A DNA stretch of 32,808 nucleotides from Ignavibacteriota bacterium (lineage in GTDB: Bacteria > Bacteroidota > Ignavibacteria > UBA10030 > UBA6906): positions 42,726 to 75,533 of the forward strand of contig PMBF01000018.1 in NCBI GenBank assembly GCA_003152875.1, in the 5' to 3' direction. The position numbers and the translations under genes were made by a program. Under the pieces are notes generated by a model, which did no database searches, was not told where the DNA came from, and saw nothing but the letters and a program-made list of their open reading frames with translations. Each line of letters starts with the position of its first letter. Positions within the stretch are counted from its first letter, which is position 1. Below, piece after piece: positions 495-13,251 of the stretch.

Positions 495-1394
495 TCAGTA
501 CCGCACGACGGTAAGGTTTGAGATCCCGGACTGGAGGCTGATGAATACCTTCTTCGCGGACGAGGCGAAGTTCTCCGTCCGGTAGGTTCCCTCGTTGGTG
601 CGTGAAAAATCCTTGAAGCTTTTACGGGATAGCGGGGAGTCCGCGTTGATCTCACACGCCGAGCTGTGAGGGACAAGTATGCGGACCGAGGAGACTCCGG
701 ACGATACAGCCAGACGCATCTCGTCTGAGCGGTCTCCGAGTCTGACACGGACCTGAGATGCGCCGGCTTCCAGGCTTACTCGCTCCACCAGGAGAGGGGA
801 AAAGTCGAGATCGAGACGGGACGCGCCTACCGCGAATTTCATGTCCCAGGGTACCAAGGGGTTGAACCGGAGTGTCACGCGGTTGCCTGAGCGGCTGAAC
901 GTCCACCCTCTCCTTTCTCCTTCAAGCCTCAGACTGACATCTTCGCTTTGCTCTATCCGGTCACCACGCATCACGTAGCGTCCGAAACCAGAATACACGG
1001 TCGCTTCCACGAGCTGTGCGGTTGTCCCCTCAAGATTGAAGCTCCCGGCACCGGATTCGAACCGGAAACTCGCACGGCGGACCCCCTCATCGAACGGTTG
1101 CGCGAACTCCTGAGTCCGCGCCGGGCGGTCCACATAGCCTCCCCCATCGAAATCAAGACCCCAGTCGATCAAGGCCGCGCCAAGAGCAGCGAGGATGAGC
1201 CCGGCGAGGGCGGCAGCGACAGGGGCGAATTTCGATCCGCGGGAGAGGATTGCTCCGCCCCAGAGGACCAGCATCAGGGGCCAGAACCGCCATATCGCCT
1301 GCCACTCGGGAACGAAAAGGGAGAAGCGGCTCAGGAGCAAGATTGCTCCGAGGCAAATAAGGAACGACGCCCAGAAGAACCGGCCGGATTTCAT
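495..1394 (-). CDS. LiaF-like cell-envelope membrane protein with C-terminal beta (toast-rack) domain
   Basis: The 299 aa protein has three predicted membrane helices in the first ~80 residues (FFWASFLICLGAILLL, a WRFWPLMLVLWGGAIL segment and a VAAALAGLILAALGAAL segment). A beta-rich extracytoplasmic domain follows with repeated G-A-S/G-x-L/V-x-L patterns, typical of the DUF5668/LiaF-like 'toast rack' fold. In Firmicutes, LiaF-type proteins modulate envelope-stress two-component signalling; the role here is inferred only from architecture. The start at 1394 was chosen because AAAGGAGGT sits 6 nt before it. An upstream in-frame extension to 1445 would overlap the preceding gene and lacks a ribosome-binding site. 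The Shine-Dalgarno sequence overlaps the stop codon of the upstream gene, so the pair should be translationally linked. Confidence 0.8.
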   Translation of the reverse strand: MKSGRFFWASFLICLGAILLLSRFSLFVPEWQAIWRFWPLMLVLWGGAILSRGSKFAPVAAALAGLILAALGAALIDWGLDFDGGGYVDRPARTQEFAQPFDEGVRRASFRFESGAGSFNLEGTTAQLVEATVYSGFGRYVMRGDRIEQSEDVSLRLEGERRGWTFSRSGNRVTLRFNPLVPWDMKFAVGASRLDLDFSPLLVERVSLEAGASQVRVRLGDRSDEMRLAVSSGVSSVRILVPHSSACEINADSPLSRKSFKDFSRTNEGTYRTENFASSAKKVFISLQSGISNLTVVRY

Positions 1395-1407: not shown

Positions 1408-1611
1408 TTAGGAGCCTCTTCGCGATTTCCACAACAGGACCACACCGATGGCGATCAGGATGACCGGCCAGTAGTCCTCAAATTGGAACCAGGGATAGAG
1501 GTTTCGGAGCAAAAACAGGATGCCCAGGACTATGAGGATGACACCGCCCATGAGGCGGCCGCGCCGGGCATCGGAATCCCGCTTGGGTTTGCTAGGTGCG
1601 TTGTCGATCAT
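1408..1611 (-). CDS. Small DUF5668-type two-helix membrane protein
   Basis: A 67 aa protein with a basic N-terminus (KPKRDSDARRGR), then two hydrophobic segments: GGVILIVLGILFLLRNLYPW and YWPVILIAIGVVLLW. The intervening FxxYWPVIL turn is typical of the LiaI/LiaF-like transmembrane region (DUF5668). The ATG at 1611 is preferred. The longer frame begins with TTG at 1668, which lies next to the -10 region of the promoter candidate at 1672-1697 and so would fall upstream of or at the transcript start. Thirteen bases separate it from the downstream LiaF-like gene. The two probably form a small envelope-stress operon in which this protein duplicates the N-terminal membrane region of its partner. 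Confidence 0.75.
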   Translation of the reverse strand: MIDNAPSKPKRDSDARRGRLMGGVILIVLGILFLLRNLYPWFQFEDYWPVILIAIGVVLLWKSRRGS

Positions 1612-1671
1612 GGCTGCAGCAGTCGGAAGTAAGGGGATTGAGGGGATGCTGTTTTGGAGATGACCCAATAG

Positions 1672-1697
1672 TATACGAGAGTTTTTCGAAAGAGTTC
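1672..1697 (-). promoter_or_regulatory. ECF-sigma-type promoter candidate of the LiaF-like operon
   Basis: On the minus strand GAAC (1697-1694) is followed after exactly 16 nt by CGTATA (1677-1672). This resembles known ECF promoters (GAAC-type -35 with CGT-type -10; Bacillus SigW is TGAAAC-N16-CGTA). The same arrangement, including the flanking CTGAAC and TCTCGTATACT, recurs before the RsbU gene at 13020-13045. It places the transcript start about 50 nt upstream of the ATG at 1611. Confidence 0.5.
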
Positions 1698-1809
1698 AGC
1701 AGCTGGTGTCCAGAAGAAGTTGAAATCGACAACATCACAAAAATCCTCTAACGTGCATATGTCAAACATCTTGCCGGCTTGCTCAGGCAAGACAACCGGA
1801 CACCACCGG

Positions 1810-1863: not shown

Positions 1864-4800
1864 TTAACGGGATACGGTAATGGTGCCTCCGCCGTTTGCG
1901 GAATAGTAGTCGCCGTTGTACATGGCCTCCGCCACGATCGGCGCATATCGGTAACGGCCGGGAGTTACCGCACGCATCGCATAGAAGAACACCGCTTTCT
2001 TTGTCCCGTGGAATCCTGTATAGAAGTTAATCCTGTCATCACGCACATCCAGGTACTCGGGCGCCGTTGCGTCTTTCACGAAGGAGTACCCGGTCATTTC
2101 AGAGAGACGGGGGTTCTCGATCTCGAAGCCGGCCGGGAGCAGGTCGCTGACGGCGATGTGCTCGAGGAGGTCGACAGACGAGCGGAGAGTTACTCTGACA
2201 ACCACAAGATCGTTCTGATGTGTGCCGGCGATGTTCACCGGGTTCCCGCCGCGGTCGAGGAATTCCCTCCGGACCTGCAGGTTCCGGTCCTCCTCCCTGA
2301 CGCCTCCATCAGTCCTTATCCCTTCGGTCACCACGGAGTAGTAGGCCCTCCCCTCCCCTTTGACGGCAATCGTCACCGCATCGCCGAAGGGATCGACGTC
2401 GAACCGCTGTGTCCCGCCCCGGTAGACCTGGTCACGCCCCCCTGAGGTCACGCTGCCGCTCAGTTTTGCCGCGGCAGCCATCCGCGCGGCTTTGCCAAAA
2501 GCCAGAAGTGTGAATGCATCGTCCTGCGTGCTGAACCACCTGTCCTGACCGTAGCGGTGCGACAGGTAATCCATATAGCGGGGGATGTTCGGATTGTTCA
2601 GGTCCGTATCGAGAAGGACGTTCAGGATGATGGCGTTCGCTCGAACGGGAGAGTCGAAGTCCTCACCCGTGGAGCGCACCGGTTCCTCCGTCCCGAAAGC
2701 TCCCGGGAGGATCTCCGTAAAAGCCCTGCGGTCGCCGCTCAGGGCATACGACGCCGCAAGCATCGTCCGCGAATCCGCGGCCAGGAGGGTCCTGTCGCCG
2801 CGGTAGAAGTCCATGACCGCCCGGTCCGGCATCCCTGCGGCTGCCAGGAGGTAGAGAGCATAGATCGTGCTCTTGTCGGCGATGCGGCGGACCACGGTTT
2901 TCCCCTCCTGCCACGAATAGTAATCAAAGGTCTTTCGGCTGCGGGCAATTACGCCGGCCGCCCCGAGGGCGGGCCTGAGCATTGCCTCGGGCACGTTGTA
3001 GCCTGCCCTGCGCGACTCGAGAAGGAAATGGGCCGCGTAGACCGTCGTCCAGGGGTTGGTGGATGAGCCTCCGGGCCAGTAGAGGAAGGACCCGTCGGGC
3101 GTCTGAAGCGCACCGAGGATGCCGATGGCCTCATTGACGTAGTAGGCGGGGCTGCCACCGGAGAGGGCGTCAGGGGCAAGGATGGCCGCGATGTCGCGGA
3201 GATAGAGCTGCGGAAAGGCCCTGGAGACAATTTGCTCCAGGCAGCCGTAGGGGTAGCCAAGAAGCTTCTTCAGGCGCCCCGCAAAGTTTCCAACGGGGAA
3301 CGGGCTGATCGTCACATACGCACGGCGTCCCTCTTTCATATAGGTATCAGGCACCGGCTGCCTGACGGACCCTCCCGCCTCGATGATGCCGGTGATTGCG
3401 TCGGCGGCAAAGGCGGAAGGAGGACGGACAGGGAGGTCGGTGGAGGACTCCAGTGTTCCCTCGGGAGTCGAGGTTCTCACCGTCACAGTGGCCTTGCCCG
3501 GCTGGCCCGCAGCACGAAGCCCGGCCAGAGCGAAGCCCTCGCGGTCCGGACCGACGGTGAGTACGCCCGGCTTTGCCGTGAGACCGATGCTCCCTGCGGT
3601 CGCCACTTCGAATTTCAACGACGCATCCCGGGCAGTGGTGTTGAACGCGGTGATCGCCATCGAGATCGAATCGCCTGGACTCAGGAATCGGGGGAGCGCT
3701 GCGGTCACCACGTAGGGATCGGCCGCCGTAAGTGCCTGCTGACTGGACCCGAACCGGTCGCCCTTATAGGCGACCGCCATCAGGCGGATCTCACCGTTGA
3801 AATCGGGGACGTCGAGCGTCACCTGCACCTCTCCTTCCGCGTTTGTCCGGCGGATCCCCGACCAGAATGCGACAGGCTTCACCCGCTGCACGCTGACCGG
3901 GGTGATCCGCTTCCCGAGTTCCGCATCGCTCCCGCCGGTGCTGCTCACCCGTTTGCCGGCCGGCTCCGGGATCAGATGCTTGAAGAAGTCGTACGTCTCC
4001 GTTTCGAGGGCTTTTCGTGCGTAGAAGTATCCGTACGGGTCGGGGGTCTTGTAGTTCTTAAGCTGGAGGATTCCCTCGTCGACCGCAGCCAGAGTCACTG
4101 CGGCGTTCTTTTCACCCGGAACGGTAATCGTCACGGTCTGTCTGGTGCGCGGTCGGATCGAAGCAGGCGCCTTGATCGCAACCTCCAGTTTATTGGAAGT
4201 CCGCTCCACCATCACCGGCGCAAAGCCGTGACCGGCGAGAAGAGGAATGTTGAGTTCCTTGATCTTCCGGAAGAGCACGGCGCTGATGTACACATTGGGC
4301 AGAAACCGCTCCTCGACCGGCAGATCCATCGACGCTGCGTTGTTCACGGCATCGAGCCACCGGTAACTCATCACGCCGTTGCGCTCGACGGAAACCAGCA
4401 TTCTCCCGTTGAACGGAGTCTGGAACAGCACCTTGGCTCTGTCACCCGGCGCATAGCGCTCCTTATCGAGCACGATGTCGACTCGCGCTTCGGGATCAAC
4501 CTGGAAGGACGTGATGTCGGTGGTCCCCCAGCTGTATGAGAAGAAGGAGAACTGGTTATACCCGCTCTCCCCTTCCTTCGATACGCGCACGAGATACTCT
4601 CCAGACCGGGGTGCGCTGTAGGAGAATTCCGCCGGCCCCCCCGCGATGGTGATGACGTCGGAGCTGACAGGAACTTCCCGGCGTTCCGATACATACCGGA
4701 GTGTCTTGTCATAGCCGTGCTGGCGCAGAATGGAATGCCATTCCAGGCGGATGATCTCAACCCGTGCCCGGAGTCCCTTGATCGGTGCGTCGGCGGGATC

Positions 4801-7290
4801 GACGGCAACAACCTGCATCTTCTGGGGGACGTTCGGACTGACATAATAGGCCCCGCGGTTCAGCACCCCCAGATAGTACTGCTTCGGATCGACAAGCGTC
4901 AGAGCGCGCTGGTACACCGGGCGCCCCGATTCGTCGAACACGGCGACCTTCCCGATTCCCCTCAGCATGCCTGAGGAGGGAAGCGGCGCGGGAACCTGGA
5001 GATCGAAGGACGCCCTGCCGTCCTGGCCGGTCTTCCCGTCAAGCAGCACGGGTTTGACGGGCGCGTTCTTCACGGCATCATCCGCGAACCTGAACGCCGG
5101 GTAGGCCTTTGAAGCGAACGGCACCGCGTCGAACGACGCTTCAAACTGCCAGGTGCGTCCCGCGGCCGGAGGCCCGAAGAAATTGTAGGCGCTCAACTCG
5201 TAGCGGACCGTTTCACCCGGCCGTGCACGATCTCTGGAAGGGGTCAGGTTGACACGGAGGCGGTCGGGGATGAAATCCTCGATGCTCGCCTTGTACCCCG
5301 TGAGATAGAGGCCCGAGCCCGTGTACAGGTCGAAATGGTATTCACCCGTCAGCCCCGAGCGGCTGATGGGGATCGTGGTTTCGAACGACCCTTCGGCATT
5401 CAGTGCGAGTTGCTGCTCTGCCACGACACTCCCGCGCGGGCTCACGACCTTCAGCTTCACCGGCATGGAGGCAGGTATCGCCTGCGTGAGATTCCGGATG
5501 ATCCCCGACACAATGACGGTCTCCCCGGGTCGATAAAGATTCCGGTCGCCGTACAGGATTGCGTCGTAGGTGCTCTGGCTCTCCCGCTTCCCTCCGACGT
5601 CATAGCGCGATGTCTCCACTCTGTAGTCGTCGACCGTCAGGAAGTTGAAATCGTTTTCCAGTTCCGCCGTGACAATCATCAGGGGAAAGTCCTTCATTTT
5701 CGCCTCAAGCCCTGAGAACCGTGCGGCCCCGTCTCCGTCGGTTTTCGCCGCCGCGATGACCTGGTTGTTGGTTGAGATGAGCGACACAGACGCCCCGGAG
5801 ACGGGCAGCGTAGTCTCGAGACTTGTCACAAACACGATGGCCCCGTCCGGGCTGCGCTTCATGATCAGACCGAGATCAGAGATCGAGACGAGCTTCGAGG
5901 TTGTCCTCCACGGCTCGGCAGTGCCGGCAATTTCGATCAGGTAGAACCCCCTATATCCCGTGTGCAGGTAGGGGTTGAGGTCGAGGACCGTCGTGATTTC
6001 CTGGTTGTCCGGACCGCCGATCTTCAGGCTGTCAAAGTTCAACTGCCGGCCGTACGTACCAAGAGTGTACCGGTATTTCCGGTTCGCGGGCGCCGATTCG
6101 TCTCCTTCTTCCCCCGGGGAGTAATCGTAGTCGTAGTACCTCCCATTCTGGATGAAGTAGACCAGATTGTTCTGGAAGACCTGGCTGACCCTGACATTGA
6201 GCTTCGGTACGTTCATCGTGAGGATCTCGAGCTTTTTCTCTCCTCCGAGGAGCATATAGACGCCCGACTCGGAAGCGAACCGGAACGAGGGCGGGATGCT
6301 CCCGATGAAGACGGCCGCTTCGTAGACATTCTGCGTCTTCCCTCCCAGGACGCTCTCCAAGCCCGCCGCGATCACCATGTTCATCGTGCTGCCGGTCGGA
6401 AACGCTCCGTGCAGCGTGAAGGAGTTCCCTCCGCCCGTGACCGTGAACTCACGGTTCGGCTCGAGGCGGACGAAGGACTTGACCGCCGCGGGGTCCACTT
6501 CCTGGGATGTCCGCACACGGATCCAGCCGCTGGAACCGTTGTACCCTGCCTCGTGGCCGTAGATTTTCAGTTCGCCGAGAGGCGGGAGGGTAAAGACGAA
6601 AGGGGCTTCCATCGTGATTCTGGTGCCGGTCTCAGGAGAGACCAGGTCGCCTTCCACGGACGCTTCGATCTTCCGCTCCCTGTCAAGCTGAGTCAGGGCG
6701 CCCATCTCGATCGCGATCACTCTATTCCTTTCGGTGGACATGACGCGGATCCCCTGCTGGGGCGACCCATCGACGGTGACCCTGAGCCGGGAGCCGATGT
6801 CCTGCGGATCGACGGCGTAGGTAAACTCCAGGTTGGCTTTGAGCCCCACCTGGCGCGATGAGGAGAGCCTGTCGTAGAAGAACTCCGCGCCCCGGAGCGT
6901 GAACCGCATCGTGGAGAACTGGAAGGACTCCGGCCCGGAGAAGCCTTTTGCGCCGGACATTCTCGCCAGCAGGCCGGTGTTTATTTTTGCGCCGATCCTC
7001 GCGTCGCCCGGGAACATGCCGTCGGGACTGAAGATGAGCCGTGTGGTATCCTCCCAGGTAAACTTGCCTGCGAGAGGCGGCGAGAAGTCGATGAACGGTG
7101 TCGTCGTCCACGTATTGAGCGACTCGGCAGGCACGACCCCGCGAGAGAAGTGGAAAGCCAGGACCGTGTCGCGCGGGATCTCGCCTGAAGGGAGCGGCGA
7201 GGTCACGCGCAGGAGCGTTGCATCCTCGGAGGAGCACGAGAGTCCGAGGACGCCGAGAAGTAAGAACCAGAGGATGCGAGAGGATTTCAT
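1864..7290 (-). CDS. Bacterial alpha-2-macroglobulin lipoprotein (YfhM-like)
   Basis: This 1808 aa protein starts with a lipoprotein-type signal (ILWFLLLGVLGLSC), then a long series of macroglobulin (MG) beta domains. The bait-region/MG2 and alpha-2-macroglobulin core lie in the middle. The thioester motif CLEQ (within PYGCLEQ) is at about residues 1350-1353, followed by the alpha-helical thioester domain and a C-terminal receptor-binding-like domain. Bacterial A2Ms are membrane-anchored periplasmic protease traps that bind attacking proteases covalently through the thioester. The intact Cys-Glu-Gln predicts a competent trap. The gene lies downstream of pbpC in the same direction, the pairing known from many Gram-negatives. 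ATG 7290 is preferred over ATG 7305 because the signal peptide starts directly there and GAAAGGCGA precedes it. Confidence 0.96.
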   Translation of the reverse strand: MKSSRILWFLLLGVLGLSCSSEDATLLRVTSPLPSGEIPRDTVLAFHFSRGVVPAESLNTWTTTPFIDFSPPLAGKFTWEDTTRLIFSPDGMFPGDARIGAKINTGLLARMSGAKGFSGPESFQFSTMRFTLRGAEFFYDRLSSSRQVGLKANLEFTYAVDPQDIGSRLRVTVDGSPQQGIRVMSTERNRVIAIEMGALTQLDRERKIEASVEGDLVSPETGTRITMEAPFVFTLPPLGELKIYGHEAGYNGSSGWIRVRTSQEVDPAAVKSFVRLEPNREFTVTGGGNSFTLHGAFPTGSTMNMVIAAGLESVLGGKTQNVYEAAVFIGSIPPSFRFASESGVYMLLGGEKKLEILTMNVPKLNVRVSQVFQNNLVYFIQNGRYYDYDYSPGEEGDESAPANRKYRYTLGTYGRQLNFDSLKIGGPDNQEITTVLDLNPYLHTGYRGFYLIEIAGTAEPWRTTSKLVSISDLGLIMKRSPDGAIVFVTSLETTLPVSGASVSLISTNNQVIAAAKTDGDGAARFSGLEAKMKDFPLMIVTAELENDFNFLTVDDYRVETSRYDVGGKRESQSTYDAILYGDRNLYRPGETVIVSGIIRNLTQAIPASMPVKLKVVSPRGSVVAEQQLALNAEGSFETTIPISRSGLTGEYHFDLYTGSGLYLTGYKASIEDFIPDRLRVNLTPSRDRARPGETVRYELSAYNFFGPPAAGRTWQFEASFDAVPFASKAYPAFRFADDAVKNAPVKPVLLDGKTGQDGRASFDLQVPAPLPSSGMLRGIGKVAVFDESGRPVYQRALTLVDPKQYYLGVLNRGAYYVSPNVPQKMQVVAVDPADAPIKGLRARVEIIRLEWHSILRQHGYDKTLRYVSERREVPVSSDVITIAGGPAEFSYSAPRSGEYLVRVSKEGESGYNQFSFFSYSWGTTDITSFQVDPEARVDIVLDKERYAPGDRAKVLFQTPFNGRMLVSVERNGVMSYRWLDAVNNAASMDLPVEERFLPNVYISAVLFRKIKELNIPLLAGHGFAPVMVERTSNKLEVAIKAPASIRPRTRQTVTITVPGEKNAAVTLAAVDEGILQLKNYKTPDPYGYFYARKALETETYDFFKHLIPEPAGKRVSSTGGSDAELGKRITPVSVQRVKPVAFWSGIRRTNAEGEVQVTLDVPDFNGEIRLMAVAYKGDRFGSSQQALTAADPYVVTAALPRFLSPGDSISMAITAFNTTARDASLKFEVATAGSIGLTAKPGVLTVGPDREGFALAGLRAAGQPGKATVTVRTSTPEGTLESSTDLPVRPPSAFAADAITGIIEAGGSVRQPVPDTYMKEGRRAYVTISPFPVGNFAGRLKKLLGYPYGCLEQIVSRAFPQLYLRDIAAILAPDALSGGSPAYYVNEAIGILGALQTPDGSFLYWPGGSSTNPWTTVYAAHFLLESRRAGYNVPEAMLRPALGAAGVIARSRKTFDYYSWQEGKTVVRRIADKSTIYALYLLAAAGMPDRAVMDFYRGDRTLLAADSRTMLAASYALSGDRRAFTEILPGAFGTEEPVRSTGEDFDSPVRANAIILNVLLDTDLNNPNIPRYMDYLSHRYGQDRWFSTQDDAFTLLAFGKAARMAAAAKLSGSVTSGGRDQVYRGGTQRFDVDPFGDAVTIAVKGEGRAYYSVVTEGIRTDGGVREEDRNLQVRREFLDRGGNPVNIAGTHQNDLVVVRVTLRSSVDLLEHIAVSDLLPAGFEIENPRLSEMTGYSFVKDATAPEYLDVRDDRINFYTGFHGTKKAVFFYAMRAVTPGRYRYAPIVAEAMYNGDYYSANGGGTITVSR

Positions 7291-7484
7291 CGGTTCGCCT
7301 TTCATTCGTCAAGAGTCCAAAGCCGTCTTGCCTCTTAGGTGCCTTCCCGGAACGCAGGCATCCCGGGAAGAAGTTCTGTGCGGGTCCGGATTCCCGCCAC
7401 GGCCCACCCCGGGGGCGGAACAGTGGGAGCACGGCCGATTGGCGCACAGCTGAACGCCCTGGCACGGGAATGGGGGGGCTGCGA

Positions 7485-9803
7485 TCATGTCCCCATAATC
7501 TTCACGGTAATCCTCACCTTGCCCACGCGCCCCCTGTCATCCACGCAGCTCACGACATGGTCCCCTTCTCCGACGCCGACAAAATACGCCCGTCCTGCTT
7601 TCGCCCGGCCGATGTATCTGTCGTCAAGGTACCAGAAGTGGACGCCGACGTCCGCCCCCGGGGCAGCCAGGAGGGAAATCTTCTGCAGCCGGGAGGCCAG
7701 ATAGTAGATCATATCGCCCGACGGACTGAGGATCGCAGGACCGTCGCCGGCGGCCACTGTTGTACAGAACGGGTTATGTTGAGGCACGGCGGTCGTGCGG
7801 ACGCCGCTGCGTTTCCAGAAATCGAGCAGTTCCGGAGGATAGGTCTCAATGGAAGCGATGCGGTAGTCGTGGCTGCCGACACACGAAGGACAGTAGGCAA
7901 CGCTGCCATCGATTGCGACCATGTATTCCCTGCATACATCGCAGCTCGAACGCTGTGTCCGCGAGACCGAGAAGAGATCATCGATCCTCCGGACACATCG
8001 CGGCGTCGGATCCTTCCCGCTCTCAGCGCACACCTCGCGCATGCTCACATCGGTGGGAGCGGGGAGGATTGCTGTTTCGCGGCCGGCGGAGACCGCGGAC
8101 AGAATATCGAACATAAGTGGGGCCGCCGCCTTTCCCCCGGCCAGCTCCGGGTTTCCGGTGTTGTCCACATTGCCAAGCCAGACTCCGACGGTGTGTGTCG
8201 CCGAGAAGCCGATGGTCCAGGCGTCGCGCCGGCCGTAGCTCGTCCCGGTCTTGAAGGCAACGGGGGGAAGCGACGAGGGATTCCCGCCCGGCAGGTCGGG
8301 ACGATCCATGCCGGAGAGGATCTGCGTCACCATGAAGGCAGCGGAAGCCGAGAATGCCTGCCGATCTTCTCCGGGCCAGCCAGGGTCTGAGTGCCCGTAC
8401 ATGAGGGGTGCGGTCATGCCTCCATTCGGGAACGCCGCATAGGCCTCCACGAGCTCTTCCAGCGTGATCCCGCAGCCGCCGAGGATCATGCTGAGCCCCA
8501 GGCGAGGCTTCTGAGCCTGAAGGGTGTGGAGTCCCGCGCCGGCCGCAAAATCGGCGAATGCTGCGGCACCCACCCCTTTCAGCAGGCGGACCATGGGAAC
8601 GTTCAGCGATCGACGGAGGGCGTCATCGGCGAAGACCGGGCCGGAGTAGGTCCCATCATAGTTCTCCGCCGTGAACCCTTCGGCATCATACGGCACGTCG
8701 AGGAGCCGGGACTTCGGTGTCAGCTCGCCCCGGTCCATGAGCATGGCATAGAGGAGCGGTTTCAATGTGGAGCCGGGGGACCGGAGGGCCCTGGCGGCAT
8801 CGACCTGCCCGTTTGCCGCGGGGTCATCAAAATCAATCGATCCCGTATAGGCCAGGACATTCCGGGACCGGTTTTCGACCACGATGACGGCGGCGTTCCG
8901 CACACCCCTTGCCCTCCACGGGAGCATATGGCTGCCCAGCAGTTGCTCCATACACTGTTGCAGCCGGAGGTCCAGTGTCCCTCGGACGTTCCCTCCCCCA
9001 CGGCTGCGTTCTTTGATGCGGAGACAGTAGTGGGGTGCGAAATTCGGCGGGGAGCCGCGGGAGACGCTCGCCGGCGTGTCCCAGATGATGAGAGAGTCGT
9101 CGCGTGTGAGGTAACCGCCTGCGATCCAGCGCCGTGCCTGCCGCCGCCGTTCGGCGAGCAAGCGGTCGGGAAACCGGTCGGGCCGGAGACCGTTGGGATC
9201 GCGGGGGATGAGGATCAGATCGAACAGGCGGGCAATATTCAGCCGTTCCGGAGGGGTTTGATAGTAGAGCAGTCCTGCCGAGGAGAGTCCCTCGATATTG
9301 CCGCCCAGGGGGACCATGGAGAGATACAACTCCAGCAGCTGTTCCTTGGAGAATTTCACTTCGAGCTGCAGCGCCCGGAATACCTCTATGGCCTTCGACC
9401 AGAGGGATCTCTCCCTCGGTTCGAGCATGCGGGCGATCTGCATAGTGATCGTGGAGCCGCCGGAGACCCGCCTGCCTGCCTTCGCATTCTGGAAGATCGC
9501 GCGGGCCAGCGCCAGGGGGTTCACCCCGGGGTGATGGTAGAACCAGCGGTCTTCCCGGCGGATCAGGATGCGTTTCAGGCGGTCGGGGATCTCGGAGGGA
9601 TCGGTCCGCAGGCGCCAGATCCCGTCAGGCGCGAGGTATGCATGAAGGAAAAGCCCGTTGCGGTCTTCGACGGCGAGCGAATACGGTTTCGGCTGAGGCA
9701 GGGGAAACGCAAGGGAGAGAAGGGCAAACGCCGCCAGCGGGAGCAGCGTTGCGGAGACCAGGAACACCCGGTGACGCAATGCAAGTGAAAGCAGCCGTGT
9801 CAT
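7485..9803 (-). CDS. pbpC: Penicillin-binding protein 1C, bifunctional peptidoglycan synthase
   Basis: A 772 aa class A PBP. A membrane anchor (residues ~12-34) is followed by the GT51 glycosyltransferase domain with EDRWFYHHPG (84-93, catalytic Glu) and GGSTITMQ (115-122). The transpeptidase domain has the nucleophile motif STLK (Ser345, Lys348), an SLN motif and KTGTS (Lys518). The C-terminus holds a Cys-containing stretch and the beta-sandwich BiPBP_C domain typical of PBP1C. It polymerises lipid II and may crosslink strands in the periplasm. Together with the alpha-2-macroglobulin 194 bp downstream it forms the recognised PBP1C/A2M module, proposed to repair the wall and trap proteases after envelope breach. 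No strong ribosome-binding site precedes the ATG at 9803. Confidence 0.97.
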   Translation of the reverse strand: MTRLLSLALRHRVFLVSATLLPLAAFALLSLAFPLPQPKPYSLAVEDRNGLFLHAYLAPDGIWRLRTDPSEIPDRLKRILIRREDRWFYHHPGVNPLALARAIFQNAKAGRRVSGGSTITMQIARMLEPRERSLWSKAIEVFRALQLEVKFSKEQLLELYLSMVPLGGNIEGLSSAGLLYYQTPPERLNIARLFDLILIPRDPNGLRPDRFPDRLLAERRRQARRWIAGGYLTRDDSLIIWDTPASVSRGSPPNFAPHYCLRIKERSRGGGNVRGTLDLRLQQCMEQLLGSHMLPWRARGVRNAAVIVVENRSRNVLAYTGSIDFDDPAANGQVDAARALRSPGSTLKPLLYAMLMDRGELTPKSRLLDVPYDAEGFTAENYDGTYSGPVFADDALRRSLNVPMVRLLKGVGAAAFADFAAGAGLHTLQAQKPRLGLSMILGGCGITLEELVEAYAAFPNGGMTAPLMYGHSDPGWPGEDRQAFSASAAFMVTQILSGMDRPDLPGGNPSSLPPVAFKTGTSYGRRDAWTIGFSATHTVGVWLGNVDNTGNPELAGGKAAAPLMFDILSAVSAGRETAILPAPTDVSMREVCAESGKDPTPRCVRRIDDLFSVSRTQRSSCDVCREYMVAIDGSVAYCPSCVGSHDYRIASIETYPPELLDFWKRSGVRTTAVPQHNPFCTTVAAGDGPAILSPSGDMIYYLASRLQKISLLAAPGADVGVHFWYLDDRYIGRAKAGRAYFVGVGEGDHVVSCVDDRGRVGKVRITVKIMGT

Positions 9804-11753: not shown

Positions 11754-12971
11754 TCAGGAAGCCTTCCGCTTGACCACCACCATCGTCATGTCGTCATGCT
11801 GCGGTGCATCGCCCGTGAAGAGGCGGACGTCGTTCCGGATCAGATCGATCATCTGCCGCGCCGGGACATCGGCGAGGGCCGGATCCAGGAGGAGACGCTC
11901 GATGCGCTCCACGCCGTACTGTTCCTCCTCCAGATTCATCGCATCGGTGAAGCCGTCGGTAAGCATGACCAGCGCATCACCCGGTTTCAGCAGCACTTCG
12001 CGCTGTTCGTACAGGGTATCTTCGCGCATACCGAGAGGAAAGGGAACGCCGGCCGAGTCGAGTGTCTGCAGGGTCCCGTTCGACCGGAGGATTGGACGCG
12101 ACTGGCCGGCATTTGAGAATGTCAGCCGGCCCGCGGCAGGATCAAGGCCGCCGAGCAGGAAGGCAATGAAGTGCCCGCGCTTTGAGTGATGGAAGACCGA
12201 CCTGTTCAATCTGGTCAGGATCTCGGCCGGGTTGGCCGAGAGCCGGGCCTCGCTCGAGTACGCACCGCTGGCGAAAACGGCCGACATCGCGGCCTCGATA
12301 CCCTTTCCTGACACGTCGAGCACCGCCAAGCCCAGCAGCTCTCCCGACTGGCCAAGACAGGAATAATCGTAGAAGTCACCTCCCACTTCCTGGGCGGGAG
12401 AAGACATCCCCGCAATATCGTACCCTTCGATGGCAGGCTGTTCCCGCGGCATGAGCGACATCTGGACGTCCCGGGCGAGCTCCAGTTCGGTGGCGAGGCT
12501 TTCCCTCTCCTCGCGCTCCTGAGAGAAGATCCAGACCATCAGATTCACCGCGGCGAAGACAAGCGCTCCCGAAACTACCAGGGGCATGAGCCCCGGTCCA
12601 ATGTTGGAAAATGCTGCCACGAGGCCTAAGGTAATCAGCGTGTACGAGACGACGACCAGTCTCCTGCGGTCCTCCGGAATACCCTTGAAGATCTCGTCTG
12701 AGGCGAGGAGTGAGAAGACGAAGGCATCCCGCAGGCCGACCTGCTGGGGCGACACCTCAAGACGCTTCCGGAACGCCTCTTTCCTCGCCGCAAGTCCTGT
12801 CATAATCCGTTCCCAGGTCAGATAGAGAACACCGGCAATGATCAGATCCATGGAGAAGCGTTCCCAGCCATCCCCGCGCATGCCATGCAGGAGCGCGGTA
12901 GCAAGCTCAACAATTACAAGGATTTTGAGGAGCTTGATCAGCAGGCGTCGAAAGCGGACCGGGTCGATCAT
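11754..12971 (-). CDS. RsbU-type SpoIIE (PP2C-like) serine phosphatase with membrane-associated N-terminus
   Basis: The 405 aa protein has several hydrophobic helices in its first ~170 residues (ILVIVELATALL, DLIIAGVLYLTW, LVVVSYTLITLGLVAAF, LMPLVVSGALVFAAVNLMVW). A short coiled linker follows (ATELELARDVQMSLMP, the canonical lead-in to this phosphatase class). The SpoIIE domain has the metal-binding Asp residues in GGDFYDY and LDVSGKG, and MLTDGFTDAMN near the C-terminus. Such enzymes dephosphorylate anti-anti-sigma (STAS) proteins in partner-switching pathways. No STAS protein or anti-sigma kinase is encoded next to it. An ECF-type promoter candidate lies 49 nt upstream. Confidence 0.93.
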   Translation of the reverse strand: MIDPVRFRRLLIKLLKILVIVELATALLHGMRGDGWERFSMDLIIAGVLYLTWERIMTGLAARKEAFRKRLEVSPQQVGLRDAFVFSLLASDEIFKGIPEDRRRLVVVSYTLITLGLVAAFSNIGPGLMPLVVSGALVFAAVNLMVWIFSQEREERESLATELELARDVQMSLMPREQPAIEGYDIAGMSSPAQEVGGDFYDYSCLGQSGELLGLAVLDVSGKGIEAAMSAVFASGAYSSEARLSANPAEILTRLNRSVFHHSKRGHFIAFLLGGLDPAAGRLTFSNAGQSRPILRSNGTLQTLDSAGVPFPLGMREDTLYEQREVLLKPGDALVMLTDGFTDAMNLEEEQYGVERIERLLLDPALADVPARQMIDLIRNDVRLFTGDAPQHDDMTMVVVKRKAS

Positions 12972-13019
12972 GGTATTCGGCCATTCTGCGTGATTCCGGA
13001 GGACGGGGGCTGCTATAAG

Positions 13020-13045
13020 TATACGAGAAGATCACCGCTCTGTTC
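13020..13045 (-). promoter_or_regulatory. ECF-sigma-type promoter candidate of the RsbU gene
   Basis: On the minus strand GAAC (13045-13042) is separated by exactly 16 nt from CGTATA (13025-13020). The surrounding CTGAAC and TCTCGTATACT are identical to those of the promoter candidate at 1672-1697. It lies in the short gap between the small Cys-protein gene and the phosphatase, about 50 nt from the start codon. It can also be read as a sigma70-like TGAACA-N17-TATACT. Confidence 0.5.
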
Positions 13046-13050
13046 AGTCT

Positions 13051-13251
13051 TCAGGACTGAGTAATTTCCCCGGTCCGGCGCCCGGAAAAGCCGTCGCAGT
13101 GCAGCACGGGCAGTCTGGGGTATTTGGGAAACCGGAGATCGGTCCTGGAGAGCTCACAGAGCAGGAAGACGCTCCCCCGGGAGGTCTCCACGGTGGCTGC
13201 GTGAATGCAGCGCGCACAGAGACCGGCCGGGGTGAATCCTGAAGCGACCAT
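13051..13251 (-). CDS. Small four-cysteine protein (conserved hypothetical)
   Basis: A 66 aa protein with the pattern CxxC (LCARCIH), then ETSRGSVFLLCELS and LPVLHCDGF, so four cysteines are spread like a small zinc ribbon. The segment RTDxRFPKYPRLPVL between the last two cysteines is distinctive. It resembles short uncharacterised bacterial proteins recalled with similar RGSVFxLC and RFPKYPxxPV motifs. Function is unknown; metal binding is inferred from the cysteine spacing only. The ATG at 13251 is 7 bp past the VOC-protein stop, indicating the same transcript. A longer in-frame start at 13332 would overlap that gene and is less likely. Confidence 0.65.
   Translation of the reverse strand: MVASGFTPAGLCARCIHAATVETSRGSVFLLCELSRTDLRFPKYPRLPVLHCDGFSGRRTGEITQS

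Follow-up and report, generated by a model that had tools for sequence, protein, structure and literature searches.

The locus described here is best set against three known systems: the SigW regulon of Bacillus subtilis, the LiaIH-LiaGFSR and PSP systems, and the RsbU/RsbV/RsbW modules of the SigB pathway. ECF promoters carry AAC at -35 and CGT at -10 as their hallmark (PMC8103513), and the motif of B. subtilis SigW has been given as TGAAAC-N16/17-CGTA(T) (PMC2375139). The SigW regulon comprises core and secondary members, with pspA-ydjGHI and yvlABCD among them (PMC3498285). Moreover, an operonically linked sigma factor has been proposed for some toast-rack contexts (PMC11237479).

Two sites of similar appearance are present in the window, by which we mean the whole stretch of DNA that was analysed, 32,808 nucleotides in length. 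One precedes a LiaI/LiaF-like operon and the other a gene for an RsbU-like phosphatase; the predicted promoter elements and the genes behind them are as follows.

1694..1699, minus strand: -35 element CTGAAC of the putative LiaI/LiaF-operon promoter; 10 of 16 orthologous loci have AAC at this spacing
1670..1680, minus strand: -10 element TCTCGTATACT of the putative LiaI/LiaF-operon promoter; core CGTATA at 1677-1672
1408..1611, minus strand: small LiaI-like membrane protein of 67 aa, encoded by the operon's first gene (Pfam PF18917 E=2.2e-11, PF22570 E=1e-8)
495..1394, minus strand: LiaF-like protein, 299 aa, LiaF TM region and toast-rack C-terminal part (Pfam LiaF-TM)
13042..13047, minus strand: -35 element CTGAAC of the putative rsbU promoter; AAC-N16 kept in 10 of 15 orthologous loci
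13018..13028, minus strand: -10 element TCTCGTATACT of the putative rsbU promoter; core CGTATA at 13025-13020
11754..12971, minus strand: RsbU-like PP2C/SpoIIE-type phosphatase, 405 aa, N-terminal half hydrophobic (Pfam SpoIIE PF07228 E=7.9e-44)

Site 1 (minus strand, 1699-1670) reads CTGAAC TCTTTCGAAAAAC TCTCGTATACT and site 2 (minus strand, 13047-13018) reads CTGAAC AGAGCGGTGATCT TCTCGTATACT. Both are correctly oriented, site 1 lying 58 nt 5' of the LiaI-like start codon (ATG, 1611) and site 2 lying 46 nt 5' of the RsbU-like one (ATG, 12971). The first-pass annotation had placed GAAC and CGTATA exactly 16 nt apart at 1697-1672 and 13045-13020, and these coordinates and this spacing are correct. 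It had also called the two promoters identical, which is true of 17 fixed positions but not of the 13-base spacers, these being unrelated to each other.

The products encoded behind the two sites belong to recognisable classes. In its C-terminal two thirds, a LiaF family profile matched the toast-rack structure 4QRK (E=2.7e-24), and among 12 members of the LiaF family LiaF-TM and LiaI-LiaF TM1 were found in all 12, LiaF-like_C in 7 and Toast_rack_N in 4. The RsbU-like protein has orthologues of about 45-64% identity in the family, and its closest named relatives come from Ignavibacteriae/Ignavibacteria metagenome-assembled genomes (55-58% identity). Elsewhere the genome encodes RsbW-like kinases and STAS proteins, five of the latter in all, so that partner switching is possible, and the RsbU-like gene stands apart from their genes. 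At G000:C43:6300-9700 (G000 being the window's own genome) two SpoIIE-type domains, an RsbW-like HATPase and a STAS protein lie together, possibly as a full partner-switching module.

Two features of the neighbouring DNA were also observed. Upstream of LiaI-LiaF, bacterial alpha-2-macroglobulin and PBP1C-type genes occupy 1864-9767 of the window (minus strand), and several relatives likewise seem to have an alpha-2-macroglobulin-like C-terminus ahead of LiaI or LiaF. In addition, a 66-aa open reading frame (13051-13251, minus strand; CxxC, ...FPKYPRLPVLxCxGF) lies between a glyoxalase-like gene and rsbU, and several relatives show a comparable peptide 5' of their rsbU.

The likeness of the two sites was compared with chance expectation. 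GAAC-N16-CGTATA matches twice in the window and in none of 100 dinucleotide shuffles, and the 17-base form CTGAAC-N13-TCTCGTATACT is likewise found twice when up to 3 mismatches are allowed, against 0.02 expected. Across the whole 3.96 Mb genome the only exact copies of the 17-base form are the two window sites; seven further matches, all with 2-3 mismatches, compare with 5 in the reversed control. The looser GAAC-N15-18-CGTATA gave a weak excess (15 matches against 11 in the control, with spacing 16 in 8 of the 15), and the strict strings GAAC-N15-TCGTATA and GNAACA-N15-CGTAYA gave nothing convincing genome-wide beyond the reversed control. Similarly, a string resembling GAAC-N16-CGTATA was not convincingly enriched across 21 family genomes. 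The genome-wide motif count proposed in the first-pass annotation is therefore negative or weak, the strings not exceeding the reversed control. This whole-genome outcome would fit two unrelated upstream regions being alike through chance, but two exact 17-base matches within 33 kb, so far above expectation even at 3 mismatches, together with the spacing-specific conservation at three loci described below, make a coincidence exceedingly improbable. Since the strict strings are not enriched genome-wide, the regulon must instead be small or degenerate; it is probably small, which would account for the failure of raw string counts.

The promoter class was examined by comparison with the housekeeping promoter of the same genome, which was learned by two-block EM on 400 upstream regions from about 0.8 Mb. 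Runs from three different seeds, including GAAC/CGTATA, all reached one motif, TTG(A/C) followed by TA(T/C)nTT at a TTG-to-TA distance of 23 nt, and TTG-N20-TAnnT was counted in 61 upstream regions, the reverse giving 23. A C or G usually stands just before the TA of this motif. At the two window sites TTG-N20-TAnnTT is absent: their -10 elements could pass as housekeeping, but their -35 elements cannot. Housekeeping promoters whose -10, TATACT, has CG in front by chance would thus have some resemblance to draw on, TATACT being near the genome's TATATT with C or G often preceding it. However, TTG is missing at the housekeeping distance from both sites, the -35 conserved across genera is AAC and not TTG, and many orthologous sites carry CGTACA, without the housekeeping terminal T, all of which renders this explanation very improbable. 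Measured against the SigW motif, the window sites match in AAC, spacing and CGTAT, with CTGAAC one A short of TGAAAC. Assignment of both sites to the ECF class is, as far as sequence can establish it, well supported.

Conservation was assessed by footprinting, across the family, the loci that hold LiaF-like and RsbU-like genes, with the window itself left out. Within 400 nt 5' of LiaF (16 loci), AAC-Nx-CGTA was present with x=16 in seven and x=17 in three, against 0-2 at other spacings and about 0 on the reverse strand. Within 950 nt 5' of RsbU, AAC-N16-CGTA was present at 10 of the 15 loci, with 0-3 for other spacings and again about 0 on the reverse strand. If another gene comes ahead of RsbU in its unit, the site takes a more distal position, such as -910, in front of that gene, in four genomes; about one third of the orthologous loci have no site. 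Rough binomial values of 6e-12 and 6e-10 for the two operons, uncorrected for relatedness, are too optimistic because the ten genomes with sites for each operon represent five genera besides the window's own. The footprinting was performed without alignment, and alignment bias is consequently not an issue.

The family consensus is approximately (S)NAAC-N16/17-CGTAYA. The motif first noted in the window is therefore retained as an architecture, at one spacing before both operons, but not as an exact string, which differs from the consensus. The reading of the sites as ECF-type promoters is borne out by the AAC and CGT boxes and by this one-spacing conservation before the orthologues of both operons. 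Furthermore, the comparison with SigW stands, given the closeness to the published motif and the fact that the genome encodes, at another place, a SigW-like ECF sigma whose locus bears the motif.

The flanking DNA examined at the LiaF and RsbU loci of the family contained no ECF gene, and the statement in the first-pass annotation that the window holds no sigma gene is correct. Among 18 sigma-70-type matches in the genome, the candidate is a SigW-like ECF sigma outside the window, at G000:C7:42432-42938. Among NCBIfam models SigW fits it best (E=3.9e-45); the score of 154 bits is below the cut-off of 209, and hence it is named SigW-like and not SigW. The best PDB match is 5WUQ, the B. subtilis SigW (E=1e-33). 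A further 17 genomes of the family encode proteins of 70-82% identity, and additional ones contain fragments; the gene is present in nearly every genome of the family.

Directly 3' of this ECF gene lies a toast-rack-like gene with a secreted product, whose Pfam toast-rack match is weak (E=0.009). Between the ECF stop and this gene, AAC-N16/17-CGTA was found in 18 of 18 genomes (0-2 at other spacings, 0-1 in reverse), compared with 1 of 40 directly behind other ECF genes. The sigma's own promoter is conserved and housekeeping-like, and does not have the appearance of autoregulation. The idea that an ECF gene would carry the same motif at its own promoter is hence sustained for the locus but not for the position, the motif preceding the partner gene. 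An RsiW-type transmembrane anti-sigma was not recognised beside the SigW-like ECF, and the secreted toast-rack-like protein is encoded in 18 of 18 readable loci. It is from these sequence relations that we infer the pairing of the sigma with the promoters.

Another widely shared ECF sigma, the RpoE-like L026 (G000:C17), was excluded as cognate, since the promoter conserved at its own gene is different, reading TTAAAC-N16-GTCTAA or near. The element upstream of L026 and its orthologues L260-L273, with GTCCAA in G000, is probably autoregulatory. When the upstream regions of all 18 sigma-70-type genes were screened for AAC-N17-CGTA, only that of the L029 gene contained it. Genes of this type (L029/L244 at G000:C93:5771-6334, L245 and L247) are patchy ECFs with TTTAAC-N16/17-CGTATC upstream, and in G000 a zinc-finger-type partner follows next downstream.

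In Bacillus, the regulons of different ECF sigmas often overlap. The relatives have other ECFs with AAC-CGTA-like self-promoters, and overlap, or the action of a different sigma, may therefore occur here. The sites could accordingly be real ECF promoters served by different or several ECF sigmas, such as the L029 type. AAC-N16/17-CGTATC upstream of L029-type genes in G000, G013 and G005 is consistent with such an arrangement, as is the dissimilarity in detail of the LiaF and RsbU sites in G014 and G015 (in G014, CAACA/CGTACA and GAACA/CGTATA). However, L029-type genes (at least ~46% identity) were detected in only 7 of the 21 genomes, whereas the promoters are spread far wider, and the motif stands directly behind the SigW-like ECF in 18 of 18. 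We therefore judge different or several sigmas to be unlikely, and take the SigW-like ECF as the preferred candidate.

Further members of the putative regulon were sought with the family matrix in about 0.8 Mb of stretches sampled from the window's own genome. Four upstream sites reached at least 14 bits, compared with none in reverse. Two of these are the window sites, scoring 14.1 and 15.8 and thus below most relatives, which reach 22.5; the two new sites precede genes whose products start with a likely signal peptide. In other family genomes the motif was found before PspC-LiaF-TM genes (G005 and G011) and before a LiaF-LiaF-kinase operon (G002). Matches within coding regions were discarded, and those before ArsR genes in G007, G008 and G010 were not counted, as they overlap a palindrome. 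A copy of GAAC-N16-CGTATA (with TCGTATA) was also observed in G000 at G000:C106:25553-25578, about 48 nt 5' of an exported esterase-like gene; a look-alike exists at the apparent orthologue in G008, where the stretch may alternatively be coding.

Taken together, it is likely that the two sites are SigW-type ECF promoters, that the cognate sigma is most likely the product of G000:C7:42432-42938, and that an envelope-stress regulon (toast-rack, LiaI-LiaF, PspC) is joined in this way to an RsbU-type phosphatase. The notion of a common regulon survives in that the motif lies before the orthologues of both operons and at the SigW-like ECF locus. Under this model, envelope damage would free or activate the SigW-like sigma, which would switch on membrane protection proteins of the toast-rack, LiaI, LiaF and PspC types and would also raise the level of the membrane phosphatase RsbU. 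RsbU would in turn dephosphorylate an anti-anti-sigma (STAS) protein, and the envelope signal would thus be passed to a second, partner-switching layer. Here we infer the stimulus, the means by which the sigma would be held inactive, and the role and output of RsbU. A more elaborate version is offered tentatively, and we hold it to be rather doubtful as a whole: a SigW-like sigma without a recognisable anti-sigma, paired throughout the family with a secreted toast-rack protein, would direct a compact regulon that co-induces Lia/Psp proteins and RsbU and hands the envelope signal to partner switching. Feedback on the sigma might then come from toast-rack and LiaF proteins, which would take the role of an anti-sigma.

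A search of literature titles and abstracts, with most subscription papers lying outside it, found none joining ECF sigma factors with RsbU- or SpoIIE-type phosphatases. Compared with the RsbU/RsbV/RsbW modules of the SigB pathway, the system has in common a SpoIIE/PP2C phosphatase and, within the genome, an RsbW-like kinase and STAS genes; it differs in that the phosphatase gene is apart from the RsbW-like and STAS genes and has its own ECF-type promoter. A SigB-type sigma was not noticed among the sigma-70 matches listed for the genome. With the LiaIH-LiaGFSR and PSP systems (PMC11237479) it shares the same domain set, LiaI-LiaF-TM and Toastrack, although the lia operon described there is under the two-component LiaRS, while the operon in the window has a conserved ECF-type promoter.

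The closest parallel is with the SigW regulon of B. subtilis. The promoters are alike, TGAAAC-N16/17-CGTA(T) (PMC2375139) corresponding to (S)NAAC-N16/17-CGTAYA here, the candidate sigma is closest to SigW both by profile and by solved structure, and the targets are drawn from the same Psp/Lia-type membrane protection set. In contrast, the sigma here scores 154 bits, short of the 209 set for the SigW equivalog, and it is accompanied by a secreted toast-rack-like protein with no recognised RsiW-type anti-sigma. Moreover, an RsbU-type phosphatase is a putative target here and is absent among the SigW targets given in the excerpted text of PMC3498285. The connection of SigW with Psp/Lia proteins, through nearly the same promoter, would thereby extend from Firmicutes to a distant, largely uncultivated phylum, and such closely similar wiring in both points to an arrangement that is either old or repeatedly chosen. 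For organisms with little regulatory data, one candidate sigma and a few putative targets can now be named, and with rsbU among these targets an ECF sigma may pass its signal directly, at the level of transcription, to partner switching.
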